Under the pieces are notes generated by a model. That model had not been told where the DNA came from. It searched no databases and was given only the letters and a program-made list of their open reading frames with translations. A stretch of 49,875 nt of DNA, from NCBI GenBank assembly GCA_944390895.1, contig CALXRQ010000010.1, positions 1 through 49,875 of the forward strand, read 5' to 3'. Below are positions 8,472-49,700 of this stretch, one piece after another (the stretch's first letter is position 1; each line of letters opens with the position of its first letter). The stretch is from an uncultured Alphaproteobacteria bacterium (GTDB lineage: Bacteria > Pseudomonadota > Alphaproteobacteria > RF32 > CAG-239). Made by a program: the position numbers and the translations under genes.

Positions 8472-9029
8472 ATGAAAATCACATTAACTGGCAAACAAGT
8501 TGATATTGGCGACAGACTTCGCAAACATGTTGAAGAAGCCATCGAAAACTCTGTTAACAAATATTTCCCGGCTCCGATTAGCTGCACTGTAGCATTCTCC
8601 AAGGAAGGCGAAGATTTCAACGCCGAAGTTACGGTTCATCCTGCTAAAAATATCGTATTAAAAGGTTCCGGCACCGCCGGCGATCCTTATTCTGCATTTG
8701 ACAATGCCAATGCACACATTGCAACGCGCCTGCGTCGTCACAAAACCAAACTGAGCGACCACAAAGGCAAAACCGGTCTGGCCGAAATGGGAAGTGAAGC
8801 CGTATTCTCCCTGAATGAAGAAGCCGAAGAAATCGATATTGACGACGCTCCGTTGACCATTGCCGAACTCGAAGCTCAGATTCCGGTTTGCACCGTCAGT
8901 GACGCCGTTATGCGTATGGACCTGATTAATGAATGTGCATTGATGTTCAGAAACAGCGCCAACAACCACATCAGCATGGTCTACCGCCGCAAGGACGGAA
9001 ACATCGGCTGGGTTGAAACCAAAGCGTAA
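8472..9029 (+). CDS. hpf: Ribosome hibernation promoting factor, long form
   Basis: I start at the ATG at 8472, preceded by AAGGAAG, rather than at an upstream codon. The 185-residue product has the N-terminal HPF/RaiA fold (residues 1-100, beginning MKITLTGKQVDIGDRLRKHV). The C-terminal dimerisation domain (about 128-185) contains AVMRMDLINECALMF and ends GNIGWVE. Long HPF joins 70S ribosomes into inactive 100S dimers in stationary phase. It lies between rpoN and ptsN as in most proteobacteria, and has its own probable promoter. Confidence 0.95.
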   Translation: MKITLTGKQVDIGDRLRKHVEEAIENSVNKYFPAPISCTVAFSKEGEDFNAEVTVHPAKNIVLKGSGTAGDPYSAFDNANAHIATRLRRHKTKLSDHKGKTGLAEMGSEAVFSLNEEAEEIDIDDAPLTIAELEAQIPVCTVSDAVMRMDLINECALMFRNSANNHISMVYRRKDGNIGWVETKA

Positions 9030-41996: not shown

Positions 41997-42194
41997 CTAT
42001 TCCCCAATACCTAAAATTGACTTAACGATCCAACCCAGAATCTGATCAACGAAAAAGAAAAATGCCGAAGCAATTGCAACAATGATAATGACCATTATTG
42101 AGGTTCTGATAACTTCGTTTTTTGTCGGCCAGGTAACCTTTTTGACTTCCTGCTTTACCTGACGGAAAAATTGCAACGGGCTTACTTTTGCCAT
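41997..42194 (-). CDS. secE: Preprotein translocase subunit SecE
   Basis: The 65-residue protein ([20 protein letters not shown], then [20 protein letters not shown]) has the amphipathic SecE helix with TWPTKNEV, then one membrane helix (about 30-58). SecE clamps the SecY channel. It is normally just downstream of tRNA-Trp; here 3.6 kb of accessory DNA separates them. I see only weak promoter candidates in the 295-base gap upstream. Confidence 0.96.
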
Positions 42195-42608: not shown

Positions 42609-43145
42609 ATGGCAAAACTGTACCACTACATCACCAAAGGAAACACAGCTCTAACAGAAGGGATATTATCTTTTGCAAAAAATCCTAATGCCGATTTAAG
42701 CTACTACTACAGACGCACCGGCGGCGAAACAACCCATTCTGGAATTGTCAAATGGATGGAAAATTGTTTTGAGGGACGCAGCCGTGCCATTCGCGGTTTT
42801 TCCGAGCCCATTCAATGGACTGAAAAAAGCATCAATATGTTCAAACCTTTTATTGAGAACGCGGACTTGTTTTCCATTGATTTAGATACGTTACAAAACG
42901 ACGGTTTAATTGAAGCCGTCTATGTAAGTCCGGCAATAAAACCAAATTTAGATAAAGATTTTCCGCAAGATGTTGATGAACGTTTGGTAAAATTAACTTC
43001 AATTAGTGATATTGACACTTCTCCGGTAGACTGGTCTGTTTGCGATGAAAAATTAGGCTTACGTTTTTCTGTCATTCCATACTATCTGATTGTCATTAAA
43101 GGCGGTATAATTCCACCCCAATACATTACCCTAGAAGCAAAATAA
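42609..43145 (+). CDS. Uncharacterised 178-aa protein
   Basis: The family is not recognised. The N terminus MAKLYHYITKGNTALTEGIL, followed by SYYYRRTGGETTHSGIVKW and GRSRAIRGFSEPI, recalls proteins that begin with an LYHYT-type motif, including ADP-ribosyltransferase-like folds. I do not claim that function. AGGA precedes the start. It lies between secE and the first module boundary at 43.18 kb, so it is outside the repeat-bounded modules. It ends before a terminator hairpin that is part of the core repeat. Confidence 0.6.
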   Translation: MAKLYHYITKGNTALTEGILSFAKNPNADLSYYYRRTGGETTHSGIVKWMENCFEGRSRAIRGFSEPIQWTEKSINMFKPFIENADLFSIDLDTLQNDGLIEAVYVSPAIKPNLDKDFPQDVDERLVKLTSISDIDTSPVDWSVCDEKLGLRFSVIPYYLIVIKGGIIPPQYITLEAK

Positions 43146-43175
43146 TCCCCAAAATGCTCAATATATAATAAAAAA

Positions 43176-43222
43176 AAAGACGCTTTTCAGCGTCTTTATC
43201 TTGAGTGGCAGGGGCAGTAAGA
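43176..43222. repeat. Distal attachment-like repeat with tRNA-Trp 3' fragment
   Basis: These 47 bases match 45803-45849 at 45 positions. They comprise a GACGCT/AGCGTC hairpin terminator, TTTATCTTGA, and TGGCAGGGGCAGTAAGA (43206-43222), which equals the tRNA-Trp 3' end including its CCA. It is interpreted as the displaced original end of the tRNA gene. Confidence 0.75.
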
Positions 43223-43306
43223 CAATGCACGGACTACTATCTTATAAACAAAAAAGATAAAAAAATATTTTGCACAACTATTGCTTTTATTAAAACTGTT
43301 TACCTA

Positions 43307-43329
43307 TATAATAATTGATAGCGCTATCA
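43307..43329 (+). promoter_or_regulatory. Module 1 promoter -10 box with perfect operator palindrome
   Basis: TATAAT (43307-43312) is followed at once by the perfect 14-bp palindrome TGATAGCGCTATCA (43316-43329). A repressor bound there would block initiation. The AGCGCT centre is common in LacI-type operators. The -35 box is weak (TTGCTT, 20 bases away). Confidence 0.5.
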
Positions 43330-43360
43330 TTATGTTTAACTATTAAAAAAGGATATTCAA

Positions 43361-43654
43361 ATGGCTAAAAAATTATCAACATCAACAAAAGCGGCATCTC
43401 GTTATAATAATGATTGTTCCGCTAAAGGAATTGTGTCAAATTTTTTAAAAATCAGAAAAGATGCTGCAGTTCCTAAAACATTAACAACTGGAAATAAGAT
43501 GTTAGATTATGTCTTACAATCAAGAGCAGCCAGTAAAGCACCTTATGTTGGTTATGGGATAAAAGCCATTAATACTTCACCCCAAGTTGGGACTCATGTT
43601 GCGCACGGTATTAACGCTTATAACGAAAGTTGTCGTTCCCGTAAGAAAAAATAA
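43361..43654 (+). CDS. Module 1 cargo: small basic protein, 97 aa
   Basis: I do not recognise this protein. It is basic (K/R-rich at both ends: MAKKLSTSTKAASRYNNDCS at the start, ESCRSRKKK at the end) and glycine-poor, with no signal peptide or membrane helix. It could bind nucleic acid or act as a small toxin or antitoxin; neither is shown. AAAAGGA lies before the start, and an operator palindrome sits upstream. The next gene follows after 56 bases. Confidence 0.6.
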   Translation: MAKKLSTSTKAASRYNNDCSAKGIVSNFLKIRKDAAVPKTLTTGNKMLDYVLQSRAASKAPYVGYGIKAINTSPQVGTHVAHGINAYNESCRSRKKK

Positions 43655-43710
43655 AGAAATAAATATTATTATAAATTAACTTACCAATTTGGAAACAAGG
43701 AGTAAAAACA

Positions 43711-44103
43711 ATGAAATTATGGTCAAAAGAAGCTTTAGTTTTAGGCGGAATATACGGTGTTTTAGAAACTCCTTTTTCCTTTTTAGGGCTTGAAAACACT
43801 ACTGATATCTTATTTGTATTATTTATCCTCGGTATGTTTATGCTGTGTTTTAACAAAATGCCAAAGTTTTTATCAAATTTTATATCAAACTACCCCAAAA
43901 CATCATATTACTTATGTGCTATCGGTTGGATACCATACTTTATGTTTATTGTGTTCGTTATGCTAATTGGAAGTGGATATATTATAGATTACTCTGATAC
44001 TACAGTAGAATACAGTATGAATGTTATGTCTTATCCATACACAACAATTTATTTGGCAACTGCCTCCCTAATTATCGCCTTTATCAGAAAAACAAATAAA
44101 TAA
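43711..44103 (+). CDS. Module 1 cargo: small integral membrane protein, 130 aa
   Basis: The protein is very hydrophobic, with about four membrane segments (near residues 8-25, 27-45, 63-87 and 105-125). No family is recognised. AAGGAG precedes the start. Small membrane proteins paired with a soluble partner occur in many phage-defence and toxin cassettes, but this is only context. It ends 24 bases before the module's 130-bp right-end repeat. Confidence 0.62.
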   Translation: MKLWSKEALVLGGIYGVLETPFSFLGLENTTDILFVLFILGMFMLCFNKMPKFLSNFISNYPKTSYYLCAIGWIPYFMFIVFVMLIGSGYIIDYSDTTVEYSMNVMSYPYTTIYLATASLIIAFIRKTNK

Positions 44104-44126
44104 GTGTTGTTTTAACTTGTAAATCT

Positions 44127-44256
44127 GTTAACTAACATATCCCGAAATCCGATAGGATTCAAACCGCGTTAAATGCCTGTAAAATAAAGGATTTCACCTG
44201 GGATAGTCCGTGTAACCAGCGGGAAATGGCCTCATTTGGCACACCTCACACGGACT
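44127..44256. repeat. 130-bp module right-end repeat, copy 1
   Basis: This aligns without gaps to 45646-45775, with about 15 mismatches by eye (88 percent identity). It contains TAGTCCGTG (44204-44212) and CACGGACT (44249-44256) as an inverted pair, matching the CACGGACTAC at each module's left end. Confidence 0.8.
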
Positions 44257-44280
44257 TACTTAAGTGCTTGATATATAAAG

Positions 44281-44320
44281 GGAAAACCGCCCTTTCGGAC
44301 GGTTTATCTTGAGTGGCAGG
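44281..44320. repeat. Internal hairpin plus 18-bp core site between modules
   Basis: The AAACCG/CGGTTT hairpin is followed by TTTATCTTGAGTGGCAGG (44303-44320), identical to 43195-43212. The tRNA-like bases beyond it have diverged, as expected for a junction between tandem elements. Confidence 0.7.
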
Positions 44321-44345
44321 ACACATAGTGCAATCCACGGACTAC

Positions 44346-45473
44346 CTATTTTAGATCAGCAAATGCTTTTTTATAACATTCAAGCAAAAACTCATCTATA
44401 TCCTTATATTCCCCCTCTCTGCACTGTATTTCCTTATTTATAGATGGAAAAGAAAAAGTTTTGGTTCCATCAGAATTTTCTACTACTGCAAAAAGTTTTC
44501 CGCTTCTCTCCTTTTTATAAAAAACAACAAAAGTTGTTTTATAATCTCTCCACTCAACTTTATTCAATCCTTGATACAATTCATCTGTATCAATAAGAAA
44601 AGCTAAACGCTGCTTAGCATAATTATAAATACATATTTCTTCTTCAGTTGTAACAATATCTGACTGTTGAATTGAGTGGACAGGGGATGGTTCTGCCACA
44701 TCTTCCTTTTTTTCCTCAATCTTGACCAAGCGTTTATCCGTTAGCCCCACACGGTCTAAAATTCTCTTATCAATAAATCCCTTAAACGCAGACTTGACAA
44801 TTTCAGTATTTTCATCAAGGACTCTACGAGTTATTTTTTGACTAATACCTTCAGAATTTTTAAGAAGATAACCGATAAAATCATCTGAAGGATTTTCAAG
44901 ATTTTTCTCTAAAAAATTTATAATTGAAGAAAATATAAGTTTTTTCTTGGCTTCTGCACCAACATTATCTGGATCAAATTCATTTTTAGCAAATGTCAAA
45001 ATAGCTTTGACCTGCTCATTATCTATCCTACCTTTAGCAAACTCATCAAAGTTGAAGCGTAAAAACGGCTCTTCATCCATCATATTTGGAGAATCACAAT
45101 CTGCAAAAAACTCGTAAATAATACCGTCTGTCAAAACGCCTAATTTTACACTTTTACAAGCGTTAAAATAACTTCTAAGTTGGCCTCTATCCGCTTTATC
45201 AACTGTTTGCTTGCATTCAATAGCCATAACAGCTTCTCCATTACGAAGAATTGCATAATCAACCCGATTTTTATATTTATCAGAAAAATCTGCTGAATGC
45301 TCTGGATTAACTTCATTGACATCAAACACATCATACCCAAGCAATGAAATAAACGGCAATATCATTCCTTGTTTACAAGCTTCTTCACTTGCACAACTTG
45401 GCTTACGACGTAGACACATTTCAGCGTGTCTTACTAATTTATCTCTAAAAATTTTAATCTCATCTTCCGTCAT
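44346..45473 (-). CDS. Module 2 cargo: HsdR N-terminal-like PD-(D/E)xK protein
   Basis: The 375-residue protein has a nuclease-like core in its first 170 residues. LPFISLLGYDVFDVNEVNPE is followed by NRVDYAIL (D72) and AVMAIECKQ (E86-C87-K88), a PD-(D/E)xK arrangement as in type I restriction enzyme R-subunit N-domains. There is no helicase motor and no modification or specificity subunit nearby. The C-terminal half carries a charged linker and an unknown domain (about 285-375). I start at the ATG at 45473, with GGGA upstream. A promoter lies at 45509-45537. It may act in defence or in nucleic-acid degradation. Confidence 0.72.
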   Translation of the reverse strand: MTEDEIKIFRDKLVRHAEMCLRRKPSCASEEACKQGMILPFISLLGYDVFDVNEVNPEHSADFSDKYKNRVDYAILRNGEAVMAIECKQTVDKADRGQLRSYFNACKSVKLGVLTDGIIYEFFADCDSPNMMDEEPFLRFNFDEFAKGRIDNEQVKAILTFAKNEFDPDNVGAEAKKKLIFSSIINFLEKNLENPSDDFIGYLLKNSEGISQKITRRVLDENTEIVKSAFKGFIDKRILDRVGLTDKRLVKIEEKKEDVAEPSPVHSIQQSDIVTTEEEICIYNYAKQRLAFLIDTDELYQGLNKVEWRDYKTTFVVFYKKERSGKLFAVVENSDGTKTFSFPSINKEIQCREGEYKDIDEFLLECYKKAFADLK

Positions 45474-45508
45474 TTTAAATATTCCCGATACCATTAAAAG
45501 TTTTATTC

Positions 45509-45537
45509 ACAATATCTATTAAATTTTATAAAGTCAA
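45509..45537 (-). promoter_or_regulatory. Promoter of the module 2 nuclease-like gene
   Basis: On the minus strand TTGACT (45537-45532) and TATTGT (45514-45509) are 17 bases apart, 36 bases before the chosen start. Confidence 0.55.
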
Positions 45538-45645
45538 TACAATTACTCCAATCTGATAACAAATGTGAAGCAACTCTTTATGCAAAGATAAATCGTCGTC
45601 AGCGTCAAAAACTTTTCTTTTAGGCTGGCTTCAAATCTGATTTTT

Positions 45646-45775
45646 GTTAACTAATATATCCCGAAAGGCAATAGGATTCACATCGCATTAAGTGATTGTA
45701 AAATAAAGGATTTCATCTGGGATAGTCCGTGTAACCAGCGGGAAACAGCTTCATTTGGCACGCCTCACACGGACT
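45646..45775. repeat. 130-bp module right-end repeat, copy 2
   Basis: This is the second copy of the 44127-44256 repeat, with TAGTCCGTG at 45723-45731 and CACGGACT at 45768-45775. It lies 27 bases before the core repeat that joins tRNA-Trp. Confidence 0.8.
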
Positions 45776-45802
45776 CGGTTAAGCTATTGATTTATAAAGA
45801 AA

Positions 45803-45849
45803 AAAGACGCTTTTCGGCGTCTTTATCTTGACTGGCAGGGGCAGTAAGA
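45803..45849. repeat. Proximal attachment-like repeat overlapping tRNA-Trp 3' end
   Basis: This is the partner of 43176-43222. The hairpin AAAGACGC/GCGTCTTT (45803-45825) is the tRNA terminator. Bases 45833-45849 are the tRNA 3' end itself. Confidence 0.75.
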
Positions 45850-45908
45850 TTCGAACTCACGACATTCGGTTTTGGAGACCGATGCTCTACCAACTGAGCT
45901 ATACCCCT
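45833..45908 (-). tRNA. tRNA-Trp (anticodon CCA)
   Basis: The 76-base gene folds normally. Acceptor AGGGGTA pairs with TGCCCCT, the discriminator is G and the CCA end is encoded. The D stem is GCTC/GAGC, and the anticodon stem TCGGT/ACCGA has loop CTCCAAA with anticodon CCA. The T arm is GTGAG-TTCGAAT-CTTAC. In alphaproteobacteria tRNA-Trp usually precedes secE; here accessory modules are inserted at its 3' end. Confidence 0.97.
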
Positions 45909-46655: not shown

Positions 46656-47588
46656 ATGGAACAGCCGAATATATTTGATTATGCAACAAGCGAGTTGTCG
46701 CAAGATGCTTTTATTTGTTATCTGTTAGCTTTTGGTCTAGATAAGTATAAAAAATCTTATCCGAGGGAATTTAAAATTGCACATTTGTTTTTAGAAAAGT
46801 GCGGGATTCCTGCTAACGAAGAAATTTTAGAAATCAGGAAACAATATTTAAATATTGATGTTTTGGCAATTACCTCTTCCCATTTGCTAATCGTTGAAGA
46901 TAAGACAGGCATAAAAGAACATAGCAATCAAATTGTTAAATATGTTAAGGCTTTGAAAAATAGTGCTTTATCTTCGGGACGGAAAATCAAAGTTTGTTAT
47001 TTAAAAACCTTGGACTATGTTCGCCCTTATGAAACCGTTGATAAAGAAGTCTTGCCGCAATGTGATTGCTGTTCTCTCAGACGTAAAGATATGTTGGATT
47101 TATTAAAAACGAATCCTGAAAACAACTTGATTTTTGAAAGTTTTTACAGCCGACTGGATAGTATAGAAAAGCGGATAAAAAATTGTGATAACGCTGAAAT
47201 AAGAACTTGGTGCAAGGAAAAATGGTTTGATTATCTGAGTTCTGCCTTAATCGGACACGAGTTTAATATTGACTGGGTTAATAATGCCCGAGGTGGTTTC
47301 TATGCTTGTTATTTTGACTGGGTAAATTGCGGAAATGGTGAGAATTACAAACAAATAGAAATATCTTTTGAGGACGGCGTAACTTCTGAGGTCAAACTTT
47401 GCTTTAAGTTTGCCAGTGACAATAAGGAAATAACCCTTAATAGTAAATCTTTGATAAAAGATTTACAGAAAGCAGTTGTAATAAAAGGATATAAAGCCGC
47501 TTATCGTATGGGAAGAACAACAACCTACGCTTATAAAAAGGCAAAAGATATAAAAGATGTCCAAGATTTTATAAACAATGCGTCATAA
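46656..47588 (+). CDS. PD-(D/E)xK nuclease superfamily protein (PDDEXK_4-like)
   Basis: The 310-residue protein opens with NIFDYATSELSQDAFICYLL, the typical start of the PDDEXK_4 family. The active-site pattern is LNIDVLAI (D68) and LLIVEDKTGIKEH (E81-D82-K83), followed by NQIVKYVKAL. The C-terminal part (about 190-310) is a separate beta-rich domain of unknown role. GGGGAG lies eight bases before the start. It directly follows the structured RNA and its terminator, and leads an operon ending with a DnaB-type ATPase. It may be a defence or phage-derived nuclease. Confidence 0.8.
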   Translation: MEQPNIFDYATSELSQDAFICYLLAFGLDKYKKSYPREFKIAHLFLEKCGIPANEEILEIRKQYLNIDVLAITSSHLLIVEDKTGIKEHSNQIVKYVKALKNSALSSGRKIKVCYLKTLDYVRPYETVDKEVLPQCDCCSLRRKDMLDLLKTNPENNLIFESFYSRLDSIEKRIKNCDNAEIRTWCKEKWFDYLSSALIGHEFNIDWVNNARGGFYACYFDWVNCGNGENYKQIEISFEDGVTSEVKLCFKFASDNKEITLNSKSLIKDLQKAVVIKGYKAAYRMGRTTTYAYKKAKDIKDVQDFINNAS

Positions 47589-47635
47589 TTTGACGTAGTG
47601 AAAATATAGTTTTTTTTTTGCGAAAGGATATGAAA

Positions 47636-47902
47636 ATGATTGATTTTATAGAGGATAGTTGTACCGGAAGAATAAATAATTTTCCTCATATTATGCAAGG
47701 TGTTTTAAATGTTTCTCTTACTAATGGAAATGGAATAGCTCTTGGCGGATGTTGTTCAGGTGCTGTACCAGGTTGTGAAATATTAAAGTGTGATAATAGT
47801 TACATTTATGTTCGCGACAGAAACATGCCGTCTATTGTTAATGTTTATGATGAAAATGGATATAAAGTAAAAGAAATTTCAATCAATGACTTGGATTTAT
47901 AA
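47636..47902 (+). CDS. Small protein, paralogue A (88 aa)
   Basis: The family is unknown. I use the ATG at 47636, with AAGGA seven bases upstream. The C-terminal half (CEILKCDNSYIYVRD, VNVYDENGYKVKEISINDLD) aligns with the 84-residue protein two genes downstream (REILKFDKINIYVKS, VDVFDEMGVKVKEIDVKDLG). Their N termini also match (MIDFIED, MIEYLKD). The middle has GGCCSGAVPGC. It appears to be a small beta-rich protein. It lies in a run of five tightly packed genes. Confidence 0.65.
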   Translation: MIDFIEDSCTGRINNFPHIMQGVLNVSLTNGNGIALGGCCSGAVPGCEILKCDNSYIYVRDRNMPSIVNVYDENGYKVKEISINDLDL

Positions 47903-47905
47903 AAT

Positions 47906-48142
47906 ATGAATGATGATATTTTTAAGGCGAAACTGCAAGTATTGGCAGATATGCAACATTCTTTTTATGTTGATTTTATGCCTCTTGTTCAGCAAATCAA
48001 AAAAGATATTGCAACCTTAAAAATTGATAAAAAAGACATTCTTACAGTTAATCATATAAATGAAAATCTATCAAAAGCCAATAGTCTTTTAAAATTTCTG
48101 AATAAACAATCTAATATCACAAAGGATAAAATCAATGATTGA
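47906..48142 (+). CDS. Small helical protein, 78 aa
   Basis: I do not recognise this protein. It is predicted to be entirely helical, probably a coiled coil (QQIKKDIATLKIDKKDI, NENLSKANSLLKFLNKQ). It sits between the two paralogous small proteins, overlapping the second by eight bases, which suggests coupled translation and perhaps a complex. No strong ribosome binding site precedes it. Confidence 0.62.
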   Translation: MNDDIFKAKLQVLADMQHSFYVDFMPLVQQIKKDIATLKIDKKDILTVNHINENLSKANSLLKFLNKQSNITKDKIND

Positions 48143-48389
48143 ATATCTGAAAGATATGTCCGTTATCGGTTCTAAAATAACAACGTGTCCTTATACGCTT
48201 AAAGGTCCGATTGCTATTGTGTGGAATGGCGGGAAAAATGTGCGTTGCCCTGCGTGGGGTACTGGTCGAGAAATTCTTAAATTTGATAAAATAAATATTT
48301 ATGTCAAATCTGATAATGCCGGCAAGGTTGATGTATTTGATGAAATGGGCGTTAAAGTCAAAGAAATTGATGTTAAGGATTTGGGGTAA
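48135..48389 (+). CDS. Small protein, paralogue B (84 aa)
   Basis: This is the second member of the pair with 47636-47902, most similar in the last 40 residues (EILKFDKINIYVKSD, KVKEIDVKDL). The middle differs (WNGGKNVRCPAWGTG in place of GGCCSGAVPGC), but both contain a Cys/Gly turn. The start overlaps the previous gene and the stop overlaps the next ATG (TAATG), so translation is coupled along the operon. Confidence 0.65.
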   Translation: MIEYLKDMSVIGSKITTCPYTLKGPIAIVWNGGKNVRCPAWGTGREILKFDKINIYVKSDNAGKVDVFDEMGVKVKEIDVKDLG

Positions 48390-48739
48390 TGAATACAGCA
48401 AAAGATAGAATTTATCGGATAACGAATAAGGAACAACTTATTCAGTTAATCAATGATAATCCGTTATTGCGGATTTTAACCAATGGTCCTGATGTGTTTG
48501 CTTGGGAATATGAGCTTGCCTGCCACGATGAGGTTCGGCAGTTGTTTCCTGAAATAACGGACGATTGGACGGGGTATTTAATAGACAACGGACGGTTACT
48601 CCATTCTGTTAAAATAGATTTTCCGGTAATGGATAAATTTCTTTGTCGGTGGTTTCCCGATAGTTGTGAGCGCATTGATGAATATAATCGGCGTGAGGGG
48701 TTACGACTATTCCCTGTAAAGGAAAAATTAAATGGATAA
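48389..48739 (+). CDS. Uncharacterised 116-aa protein
   Basis: No family is recognised. The sequence is acidic and aromatic, with DVFAWEYELACHDEVRQLFP, DDWTGYLIDNGRLLHSVKID and a C-terminal FLCRWFPDSCERIDEYNRRE. It has no signal peptide or membrane segment. Its ATG overlaps the previous stop, and it overlaps the ATPase gene by eight bases. The tight coupling suggests it acts with the ATPase. Confidence 0.62.
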   Translation: MNTAKDRIYRITNKEQLIQLINDNPLLRILTNGPDVFAWEYELACHDEVRQLFPEITDDWTGYLIDNGRLLHSVKIDFPVMDKFLCRWFPDSCERIDEYNRREGLRLFPVKEKLNG

Positions 48740-49700
48740 AAATTGTTATCATGTTTCTTCTGTTGTTCAATCCTATTTAGAGGAATTGGATTATAGGTAT
48801 CAGAACCGAGGCAAACCTCTAGGACTTTCTACTGGCATAAAAGTGTTAGATGAACGAATGGAGTGGATGCGAAATGGAGAAGTTATTTTGCTTGGTGCTA
48901 GACCTGCAATGGGGAAAACTTCTTTTGCAGTGAACTGCTCATACCAATTAGCGAAAACTTTTTTAGAAATCCCACAAAATAGAGATTGTGTTTTATATTT
49001 TAGTTTAGAATCTTCAAGAGATATACTTTTGCCACGATTTATTTCTCATGAAACAAAACAACCTAGCTGGGAAGCGAGATATCAGCGGTATAGTGACGTC
49101 TGTTTTGAAAAAACTTATGAGGATTTTGAAGCAATTATAAATGCGACTAAACGTATATCTGAATTGCCTTTGTATATTTGTGATTATCTTGATGATATGT
49201 GTGAAATGGAAAATATTATTCAACAGGTTAATCAGCAGAAACATGTTGCTTTTATTGTAGTTGATTATGTACAACTATTTCCGTTTATGGGAAGCGATGT
49301 GGGAATGAAAGAAATAAAAAAGCTTGCTCAAACTTTTAATGTTCCTATTCTGGTTTTATCGCAATTAAATCGTAATTTGGAGCATAGAAAAGATAAACGT
49401 CCCTATTCCTATGACATTTGTGGTGAAGATAGGAAGATTTTACAGTATGTTGATAAATTGTTATTTTTGTACAGAGAATATTATTATCTTCAAAATGAAG
49501 AACCTAAAATAAAAAACAAAGAAACAAAAGAACATTTCCAAAAACGAATAGAAGAATGGGAAAAGAATTGTCGAAAAACAGAAAATGAATGTGAAATAAT
49601 GCTTGCAAAGGGTAGATATGGACGTATTAAGTGTTTTTTTGATAGAGATACAGGAATCTTTTATGATTTAGAACATCCGGAAGATGACATTCCTTTTTAG
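48732..49700 (+). CDS. DnaB-type RecA-fold helicase/ATPase domain protein
   Basis: The 322-residue protein is a stand-alone C-terminal domain of DnaB-like replicative helicases. It shows H1 (Walker A) GARPAMGKTSFAVN, H1a YFSLESS, H2 (Walker B) FIVVDYVQLFP, H3 ILVLSQLNRNLE and an H4-like AKGRYGRIKCFF. The N-terminal primase-interacting domain is missing; only about 40 residues precede the core. A charged insertion (about 250-280) is unlike chromosomal DnaB. Such forms occur in phages and mobile elements. It is last in the operon, before a terminator. Confidence 0.85.
   Translation: MDKNCYHVSSVVQSYLEELDYRYQNRGKPLGLSTGIKVLDERMEWMRNGEVILLGARPAMGKTSFAVNCSYQLAKTFLEIPQNRDCVLYFSLESSRDILLPRFISHETKQPSWEARYQRYSDVCFEKTYEDFEAIINATKRISELPLYICDYLDDMCEMENIIQQVNQQKHVAFIVVDYVQLFPFMGSDVGMKEIKKLAQTFNVPILVLSQLNRNLEHRKDKRPYSYDICGEDRKILQYVDKLLFLYREYYYLQNEEPKIKNKETKEHFQKRIEEWEKNCRKTENECEIMLAKGRYGRIKCFFDRDTGIFYDLEHPEDDIPF

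Follow-up and report, generated by a model that had tools for sequence, protein, structure and literature searches.

The Ccr proteins of the staphylococcal cassette chromosome (SCC) belong to the serine recombinase family. In the part of the literature consulted here, SCC islands are described as inserting at the 3' end of one gene, forming tandem composites, including members without ccr and carrying varied cargo (PMC6243372), and a review of integrative and mobilizable elements (IMEs) describes, in its consulted portion, cis-mobilizable elements (CIMEs) that keep attL and attR, have lost the genes for integration and transfer, and stack beside incoming relatives (PMC5704250). According to the consulted text of the Islander paper of 2014 (PMC4383910), no serine integrase was then known to use a tRNA gene as its target, and two phages are exceptions to that statement, namely phiRSM with a resolvase-like enzyme at tRNA-Ser (PMC4471427) and the Paracoccus phage Pami6, for which tRNA-Met is the predicted serine recombinase target (PMC6536676). 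In this article, I will discuss an array of small gene cassettes, here called modules, that lies between secE and tRNA-Trp in an uncultured alphaproteobacterium and recalls the systems above in several ways. The window, meaning the whole 49,875-nucleotide stretch of DNA that was analyzed, is one entire contig of the 1.68-Mb genome of a gut bacterium, whose family I take to be the GTDB CAG-239 group. The array is best read as part of an SCC/CIME-like system at tRNA 3' ends that comprises elements with a large serine recombinase (LSR) and mini-cassettes without one; within it, the modules are likely non-autonomous cassettes of LSR integrative elements that insert at the 3' ends of tRNA genes; their cognate enzyme is probably not the tyrosine integrase that an earlier note on this DNA had proposed.

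The interval between tRNA-Trp and secE, the next chromosomal gene downstream of it (presumably secE, as it was named from its sequence and nusG neighbour without a family search), measures 3.6 kb in the window and holds, from left to right, module 3 with a 178-aa open reading frame (ORF) and a truncated end repeat, module 2, module 1 and the tRNA gene itself (Table 1). The earlier note had described modules 2 and 1 as tandem modules of about 1.1 and 1.5 kb, leaving the hairpin of the repeated end, module 3 and secE unmentioned, and they were recovered as such: TTTATCTTGAGTGGCAGG stands at 43195 and 44303 with a one-mismatch copy at 45822 (placed at 45821 in the note), these being its only matches at up to two mismatches in the whole genome, with none for the pattern read backwards, and CACGGACTAC follows at 43228 and 44336, each 33 bases past its core start, the equal spacing that had already been noticed. 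The 17-bp tRNA 3' end TGGCAGGGGCAGTAAGA (45833-45849) is indeed duplicated at the far boundary, at 43206-43222. The end repeat that had been given as 130 bp at 88% identity is real, although its extent was drawn too short, as 44126-44320 and 45645-45839 align without a gap over 195 nt at 83% identity. Module 3 keeps the hairpin-plus-core part of this repeat at 43153-43212 and has had most of it deleted, as judged at this junction from BLAST alignments, and its homologue in locus L153 has the full repeat (here and below, L labels denote fetched loci and G labels genomes, most of these sequences being metagenome bins).

Each complete module opens with a LEFT end of the form TGG-N15-AAT-N-CACGGACT and closes with an END of about 170 bp (173 positions in the iterated profile), in which the inverted pair AGTCCGTG...CACGGACT is followed by an AT-rich stretch, a hairpin, TTTATCTTGA and then the next core. 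The spacing of LEFT and END is constant across different tRNAs with different cores. The arm CACGRACT, inverted in END, recurs as a single copy with constant spacing in LEFT, and this recurrence suggests that it is a protein-binding site; the arms are the least understood part of the ends. In the window, the END of module 1 has a terminator-like hairpin in the tRNA direction (45803-45824), taken from a scan that gave three terminator-like sites in that direction in the region versus 1.3 in shuffles, and the hairpin of module 2 near 44287-44302 is imperfect, was read by eye and is absent from the scan output.

The 128 fetched loci contain 28 complete LEFT-to-END units with a median size of 1.07 kb. 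No serine recombinase is found in 25 of these (0.49-4.0 kb), many of which are compact, with one to three genes between an intact LEFT and END, and the remaining three carry an LSR (two modules) or an LSR remnant plus a small serine recombinase (one). The contents are exchangeable between the same ends, with other cargos in relatives, so that the idea of a family of small recombinase-free elements with conserved ends, put forward from the window alone, holds up, and their movement in trans is plausible. The segment from END to arm matched 17 of 54 relatives (own genome counted), all of the window's family, and a tRNA-Trp query matched 101 of the 102 family genomes; 81 places chosen from those matches make up, together with the window, 82 tRNA-Trp loci. 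At E<0.01, where counts contain partial matches, the END profile gave 79 matches in 53 of 102 oriented loci, and at a strict limit (E<1e-5, at least 90 positions) it is present in 31 of the 82 tRNA-Trp loci and present two or more times in nine. Tandem modules occur in the window, L074, L078, L083, L084, L127 and L153. The concern that the repeat might be a general one, unlinked to tRNA-Trp or core sites, was not borne out, although ends of the same type also adjoin tRNA-Glu, -Gln, -Pro and -Met; the window's own genome has a second tandem array at tRNA-Glu on contig 14 (L152 7027-8667), with LEFT ends at L152:7027 and 7575 and an END at 8502-8645. A search of 84,980 species for the exact Trp LEFT pattern found it 17 times, on 14 stretches whose titles read Alphaproteobacteria in 11 cases, proteobacterium in two and Azospirillum sp. 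CAG:239 in one, several of these stretches not being independent of the family genomes; viral contigs gave no site. Within the searches made, the end system is confined to one alphaproteobacterial group.

Empty sites, for which the earlier note had suggested a search, do exist. Of the 46 loci whose fetched stretch spans both secE and tRNA-Trp in the usual arrangement (L072, with secE on the other side, was omitted), seven have the two genes only 45-52 bp apart, all in genus g14, and 39 are occupied with gaps of 0.3-15.2 kb, 27 of them with an END at E<0.01. The gene content of the gap varies among genomes, some cargo families recurring in a differing order, and the outcome that was to count against mobility, with all relatives carrying the same genes and no empty site, did not occur.

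What ties these ends to a serine recombinase is a set of larger elements that share them. Two are complete, with both ends and an LSR of about 530 aa, in L075 (16.1 kb, tRNA-Trp) and L227 (13.5 kb, tRNA-Glu); in L153, the LSR lies past its LEFT end and the element is cut by the contig end; and in G029, 52 bp separate the 3' end of the LSR gene from a LEFT end whose core is of the tRNA-Pro type (L225), a separate contig of this genome having an END at tRNA-Pro. Resolvase, Recombinase and Zn-ribbon domains were found in all five clade LSRs scanned, the Zn ribbon falling below cut-off in three. The LEFT matrix used to examine the association was trained on 14 sites, six of them hand-entered and three of those six taken from LSR loci (L225, L227, L228), and it gave seven matches at a score of at least 14 in 5.09 Mb of shuffled sequence. 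The association was counted over the serine-recombinase ORFs of 37 loci, a LEFT end being accepted when it scored at least 18, was correctly oriented and lay no more than 4 kb from the 3' end of the ORF. Of the 17 ORFs that are at least 38% identical to the L153 LSR, 16 have such an end (largest distance 3.5 kb), versus one of the 39 others, a small recombinase sharing its locus with a clade LSR (Fisher p=7e-12); this comparison group includes small serine recombinases and ORFs under 250 aa, several of which are in the same elements as clade LSRs, with the LEFT end beyond 4 kb. Of the 16 loci, 11 (L226, L242, L259-L266, L268) had been selected solely through LSR similarity or family and contributed nothing to the matrix.

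Furthermore, in a tree of 35 LSRs the 14 that are LEFT-associated need two label changes versus 11.2 when shuffled (0 of 500 as low), the tree carrying a long-branch warning for its other parts, and the LSR subclades follow the target core. The Glu-type TGGTGA and Gln-type TGGCTGG clades are supported at 100/99 and 100/100, the Trp clade TGGCAGG is less firm at 88/91, and the Pro-type TGGTCGG and one unassigned core stand beside it. Decay of the recombinase also appears visible in remnants, with a stretch 85% identical to the LSR N-terminus in L086 (5.7 kb, G067:C12) and C-terminal stretches at 80-85% in G015:C12 (in L142) and G061:C2 (beside the END in L269). The window modules themselves carry no LSR, and a search of their own genome gave no PF07508, no PF00239 even at E<=1 and no match to an LSR query that matched 70 of the 102 family genomes at E<=0.001; without a detected serine recombinase in their genome, the window modules therefore look orphaned.

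The mechanism that I propose would run as follows. A circular cassette would possess a single attachment (att) site, END-TGGCAG-LEFT, whose core equals the last 6-7 bases of the tRNA (TGGCAG for Trp) and presumably holds the crossover. Recombination with the tRNA 3' end would restore CCA and the adjacent bases, and insertion would give the tRNA the cassette's own terminator hairpin; because the site would be recreated beside the tRNA, further cassettes would stack on the tRNA side. The small cassettes would have lost, or never had, an LSR and would be mobilized in trans by an LSR that addresses the same tRNA, which for the window might be a Trp-clade LSR as in G028, G078 and G080. It is quite possible, if short of probable, that the whole amounts to an LSR cassette system analogous to integrons, with cassettes of one to three genes, a portable att end that includes the tRNA terminator, trans-acting LSRs, perhaps a SAM-domain partner that binds the arms, and LSR subclades that have diverged by tRNA while keeping the arm layout.

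Several points weigh against the proposal that the modules are cassettes of LSR elements. The circular form, the excision and the reaction in trans are inferred rather than observed, and metagenome bins can lose mobile genes. An END is missing, even at E<0.01, from 12 of the 39 occupied intervals between secE and the tRNA, and other element types therefore use the site, some with tyrosine recombinases of about 200 and 600 aa. One of the 17 clade LSRs, that of L267 (38%), has no LEFT end, its gene running into tRNA-Pro, and the 3.1 kb surrounding the relative of the module 1 protein in G058 show neither an END nor a LEFT end. Known LSR att sites span about 40-50 bp and are not known to have distant arms, so that inverted arms situated 60-100 bp from the core would fit a tyrosine-type att site better. 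In addition, proteins encoded by the larger END elements of L072 and L075 match the SAM-like DNA-binding domain of tyrosine recombinases weakly, below cut-off, and have no catalytic domain; one guess is that these may be arm-binding accessory partners of the LSR.

The alternative that survives best is decay alone, of the CIME type, in which each module would be the scar of a separately integrated LSR element with its recombinase deleted and the small modules would be immobile. The recombinase remnants described above (L086, L142, L269), the loss of most of the END of module 3, the own genome without serine recombinase and the accretion described in the consulted part of the IME review (PMC5704250) all agree with this, but so many recombinase-free modules that are compact and intact at both ends do not, nor does module 2, which recurs whole, with tRNA-Trp close by, in another assembly (L247; 1,052 nt at 75% identity and the final 92 at 88%), a recurrence that shared ancestry of a fixed module could also explain; I consider decay alone a serious contender that is nevertheless unlikely. 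Rather improbable is the view that END is chiefly an RNA or a transfer or replication element, such as an oriT-like hairpin, instead of part of an att site. Its arms keep their pairing through two-sided change in four of eight pairs (among 23 ENDs that I selected), lie at the distance from the core given above and are flanked by two similar TTAA-n-TTG AT-rich stretches, all of which would suit such an element, but the single arm at a fixed distance in LEFT fits a double-stranded protein site, and an Rfam scan returned the tRNA, two matches far under their gathering scores and nothing else.

The tyrosine-integrase explanation of the earlier note, by which such an enzyme would move the modules in trans, core and arms would form its att site and the LSR would be cargo of the larger elements, now seems very improbable. 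It can draw on the likeness of the core-plus-inverted-arm layout to tyrosine att sites, on the SAM-like-domain proteins in two large END elements and on tyrosine recombinases of about 200 aa and about 590-650 aa in some tRNA-Trp intervals. However, the ORFs of about 200 aa (L142, L113, L116, L121) are part of elements terminated by an LSR gene that overlaps the tRNA, and none of the 28 complete modules was matched when three kinds of tyrosine recombinase from these loci served as queries against ORFs down to 40 aa, though remoter kinds could escape, whereas larger elements with the same ends carry an LSR whose clade follows the target core. In module 1, the common part of attP and attB is TGGCAGG only, and G014, G084 and G009 have END modules (L083, L084, L127) yet two PF00589 genes each and no more. 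The window's genome likewise has two PF00589 proteins, both away from the modules, and their assignment as Xer-like rests on their size and on the presence of at least two PF00589 proteins in all 16 genomes searched. The third kind, of 587-648 aa, lies directly beside tRNA-Trp in L104 (16631-18394), L123 (14383-16329, PF00589) and L147 (16487-18364). Finally, that homologous recombination among repeated tRNA and terminator sequences merely shuffles ordinary genes with no site-specific enzyme is hardly credible, since END is a 170-bp repeat able to recombine but the LEFT/END spacing is fixed at different tRNAs with different cores and bound to one LSR clade, and empty sites are present.

Table 1. 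Features of the array and of related loci; positions refer to the window unless a locus label is given.
Feature	Position	Strand	Basis or remark
tRNA-Trp, putative integration target	45833..45908	-	ARAGORN, Rfam; 3' end (TGGCAG on + reading) = core
secE, chromosomal neighbour of the array	41997..42194	-	ORF; adjoins tRNA-Trp in empty sites
Module 1, complete LEFT-to-END cassette, 1.5 kb, recombinase-free	44314..45832	.	Sequence repeats, module test
Module 2, complete LEFT-to-END cassette, 1.1 kb, recombinase-free	43206..44313	.	Repeats; whole-module relative near tRNA-Trp in L247
Module 3, in decay: cargo of 178 aa and hairpin/core part of END only; left limit provisional	42609..43205	.	END profile, BLAST
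Module 2 LEFT end: TGGCAG core, spacer and CACGGACT arm (43228-43235)	43206..43235	+	
Module 1 LEFT end: TGGCAG core, spacer and CACGGACT arm (44336-44343)	44314..44343	+	
END of module 2, inverted arms 44205-44212 and 44249-44256	44150..44313	+	END profile
END of module 1, inverted arms 45724-45731 and 45768-45775	45669..45832	+	END profile
Terminator-like hairpin of decayed module 3 END	43176..43197	-	Terminator scan
Module 1 cargo, 382-aa protein, HsdR N-terminal domain	44346..45494	-	PF04313, E=8.3e-11
Module 2 cargo, 97-aa protein, no family	43361..43654	+	ORF, Pfam/PADLOC/NCBIfam
Module 2 cargo, 130-aa hydrophobic protein, no family	43711..44103	+	Relatives in L118, L127, L247, L251
Module 3 cargo, 178-aa protein, no family	42609..43145	+	ORF
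PD-(D/E)XK protein etc., across tRNA-Trp from the array	46656-49700		ORFs, Pfam
Related SAM-like-domain proteins	L072 5487-6725; L075 14244-14513, 17437-17985		Weak domain match

As for the cargo, PADLOC and NCBIfam returned nothing for any of the four proteins between secE and the tRNA, and Pfam likewise nothing for the 97-, 130- and 178-aa proteins. The defence-like character once attributed to the cargo therefore keeps the HsdR N-terminal domain of the 382-aa protein on its side and otherwise finds little support, as that protein has no PADLOC match, the others are without family and cargo elsewhere is mixed. The 382-aa protein occurs in two of the 102 family genomes, itself included (its sole relative, in G058, is 36% identical), and has no match in the fetched loci; among the matches listed, module 1 aligns elsewhere only from about 45584 or 45653 rightward, that is, over END and at most 85 bases before it. 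The cargo of module 2 is also present in L251, with an END 1.3 kb further off. The 178-aa protein of module 3 is found in eight clustered tRNA-Trp intervals, window counted, and in L153, L078 and L083 it likewise lies near secE with other modules after it. In a Pfam search of ten cargo proteins that I chose, the matches above cut-off were to S41 and S51 peptidases, an exonuclease and a RimK-like ATP-grasp protein; three further proteins matched below cut-off (two nuclease-like), and three had no match. A defence role is possible, but it is not the rule. On the other side of tRNA-Trp, the stretch listed last for the window in Table 1 encodes, besides the PD-(D/E)XK protein, a DnaB-like helicase near the contig end and two small proteins that look alike by eye (47618-47902 and 48135-48389), and is possibly another mobile element.

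Other elements share these tRNA genes. In a second type of LSR element, the LSR gene is convergent into the tRNA 3' end so that its last codons are the tRNA end, and this was seen at tRNA-Trp (L113, L116, L121, L142), -Thr (L236-L238), -Leu (L229, L240, L241), -Asp (L235, L243), -Glu (L239) and -Pro (L267). The gene end reads ..TGG CAG GGG CAG TAA in L113, L116 and L121, a second serine recombinase of about 280 aa stands beside the LSR in L113, L116, L142 and L231-L233, and with the L142 LSR as query, 13 of 23 matches were short ORFs over tRNA-Trp and were dropped, the query ORF itself reading into the tRNA. In L242 (7245-7257), the stop codon of a second-type LSR falls inside the LEFT end of the next END-type element, and both types thus occupy one Glu-type core in tandem. 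Both also carry large genes, for proteins of 775-832 aa, that look autotransporter-like by eye (L075, L113, L116, L142). L092 (17602-18530) and many further tRNA-Trp loci have another end type beside the tRNA, a long palindrome of the form TGCCAATAAAAAA..hairpin..TTTTTATTGGCA; in some of them, a GC-rich unit of about 190 bp containing pieces that resemble tRNA stands before it. Copies of tRNA-Trp limited to its 5' part lie about 8-10 kb from the full gene in L161, L162, L163, L164 and L148 (G011, G081, G101, G125), and a tyrosine integrase of 376-398 aa near those copies makes up a separate integrase system on the same tRNA.

Returning to the described systems, the one outlined here appears by comparison to resemble SCC composites and CIME accretion in its working principle and integron arrays in its format. 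With SCC and pseudo-SCC elements of staphylococci, which sit at the 3' end of orfX/rlmH, it shares a serine recombinase, insertion at a 3' end and tandem recombinase-less members (25 of the 28 complete modules here), and it differs in having tRNA targets of several kinds, cassettes of 0.5-4 kb, a hairpin with inverted arms, an LSR of about 530 aa and an alphaproteobacterial host. Against the NCBIfam CcrB model, two of the LSRs score 61.7 and 65.5 bits, with a curated cut-off of 900, and so do not count as the ccrAB/ccrC of SCC, and the target is a tRNA 3' end rather than that of orfX/rlmH; the system here thus fails SCC's defining recombinase and site. The accretion of CIMEs, integrative and conjugative elements (ICEs) and IMEs is a possible parallel in so far as the modules keep both ends and 25 of the 28 lack a recombinase, although CIMEs are described for ICE/IME remnants and here a compact cassette format recurs. 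Integron arrays and clusters of attC sites lacking integron-integrases (CALINs) are alike in format, but an integrase acts on attC there, whereas an LSR and a tRNA-end core are found here. The larger elements have what an LSR-bearing integrative element is expected to have, that is, the integrase domains mentioned above (5/5) and an integrase gene that lies within the ends and close to one att site (16/17), and the on-board enzyme of a tyrosine-integrase genomic island is missing (0/28 with the profiles and queries used). Tycheposons of marine bacteria are tRNA-associated islands with cargo, which is the likeness, and use a tyrosine recombinase, which is the difference. They are named in the consulted part of one further source (PMC11389934). 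The two phages introduced at the outset are similar in having a serine recombinase at a tRNA gene and differ in being single phages, with no cassette arrays described in the consulted parts of those papers. In the literature searched, whose coverage is non-exhaustive, I found no account of LSR-linked mini-cassettes at tRNA genes.

Taken for what it means in this family, serine recombinases have seemingly specialized on the 3' ends of several tRNA genes in one lineage, and that lineage appears to sustain a large pool of tiny recombinase-free cassettes. This offers LSRs whose att sites are predicted at no fewer than four tRNA-type cores and a natural setting in which to test shifts in LSR target specificity, and it aids the reading of accessory genes in uncultured gut alphaproteobacteria.

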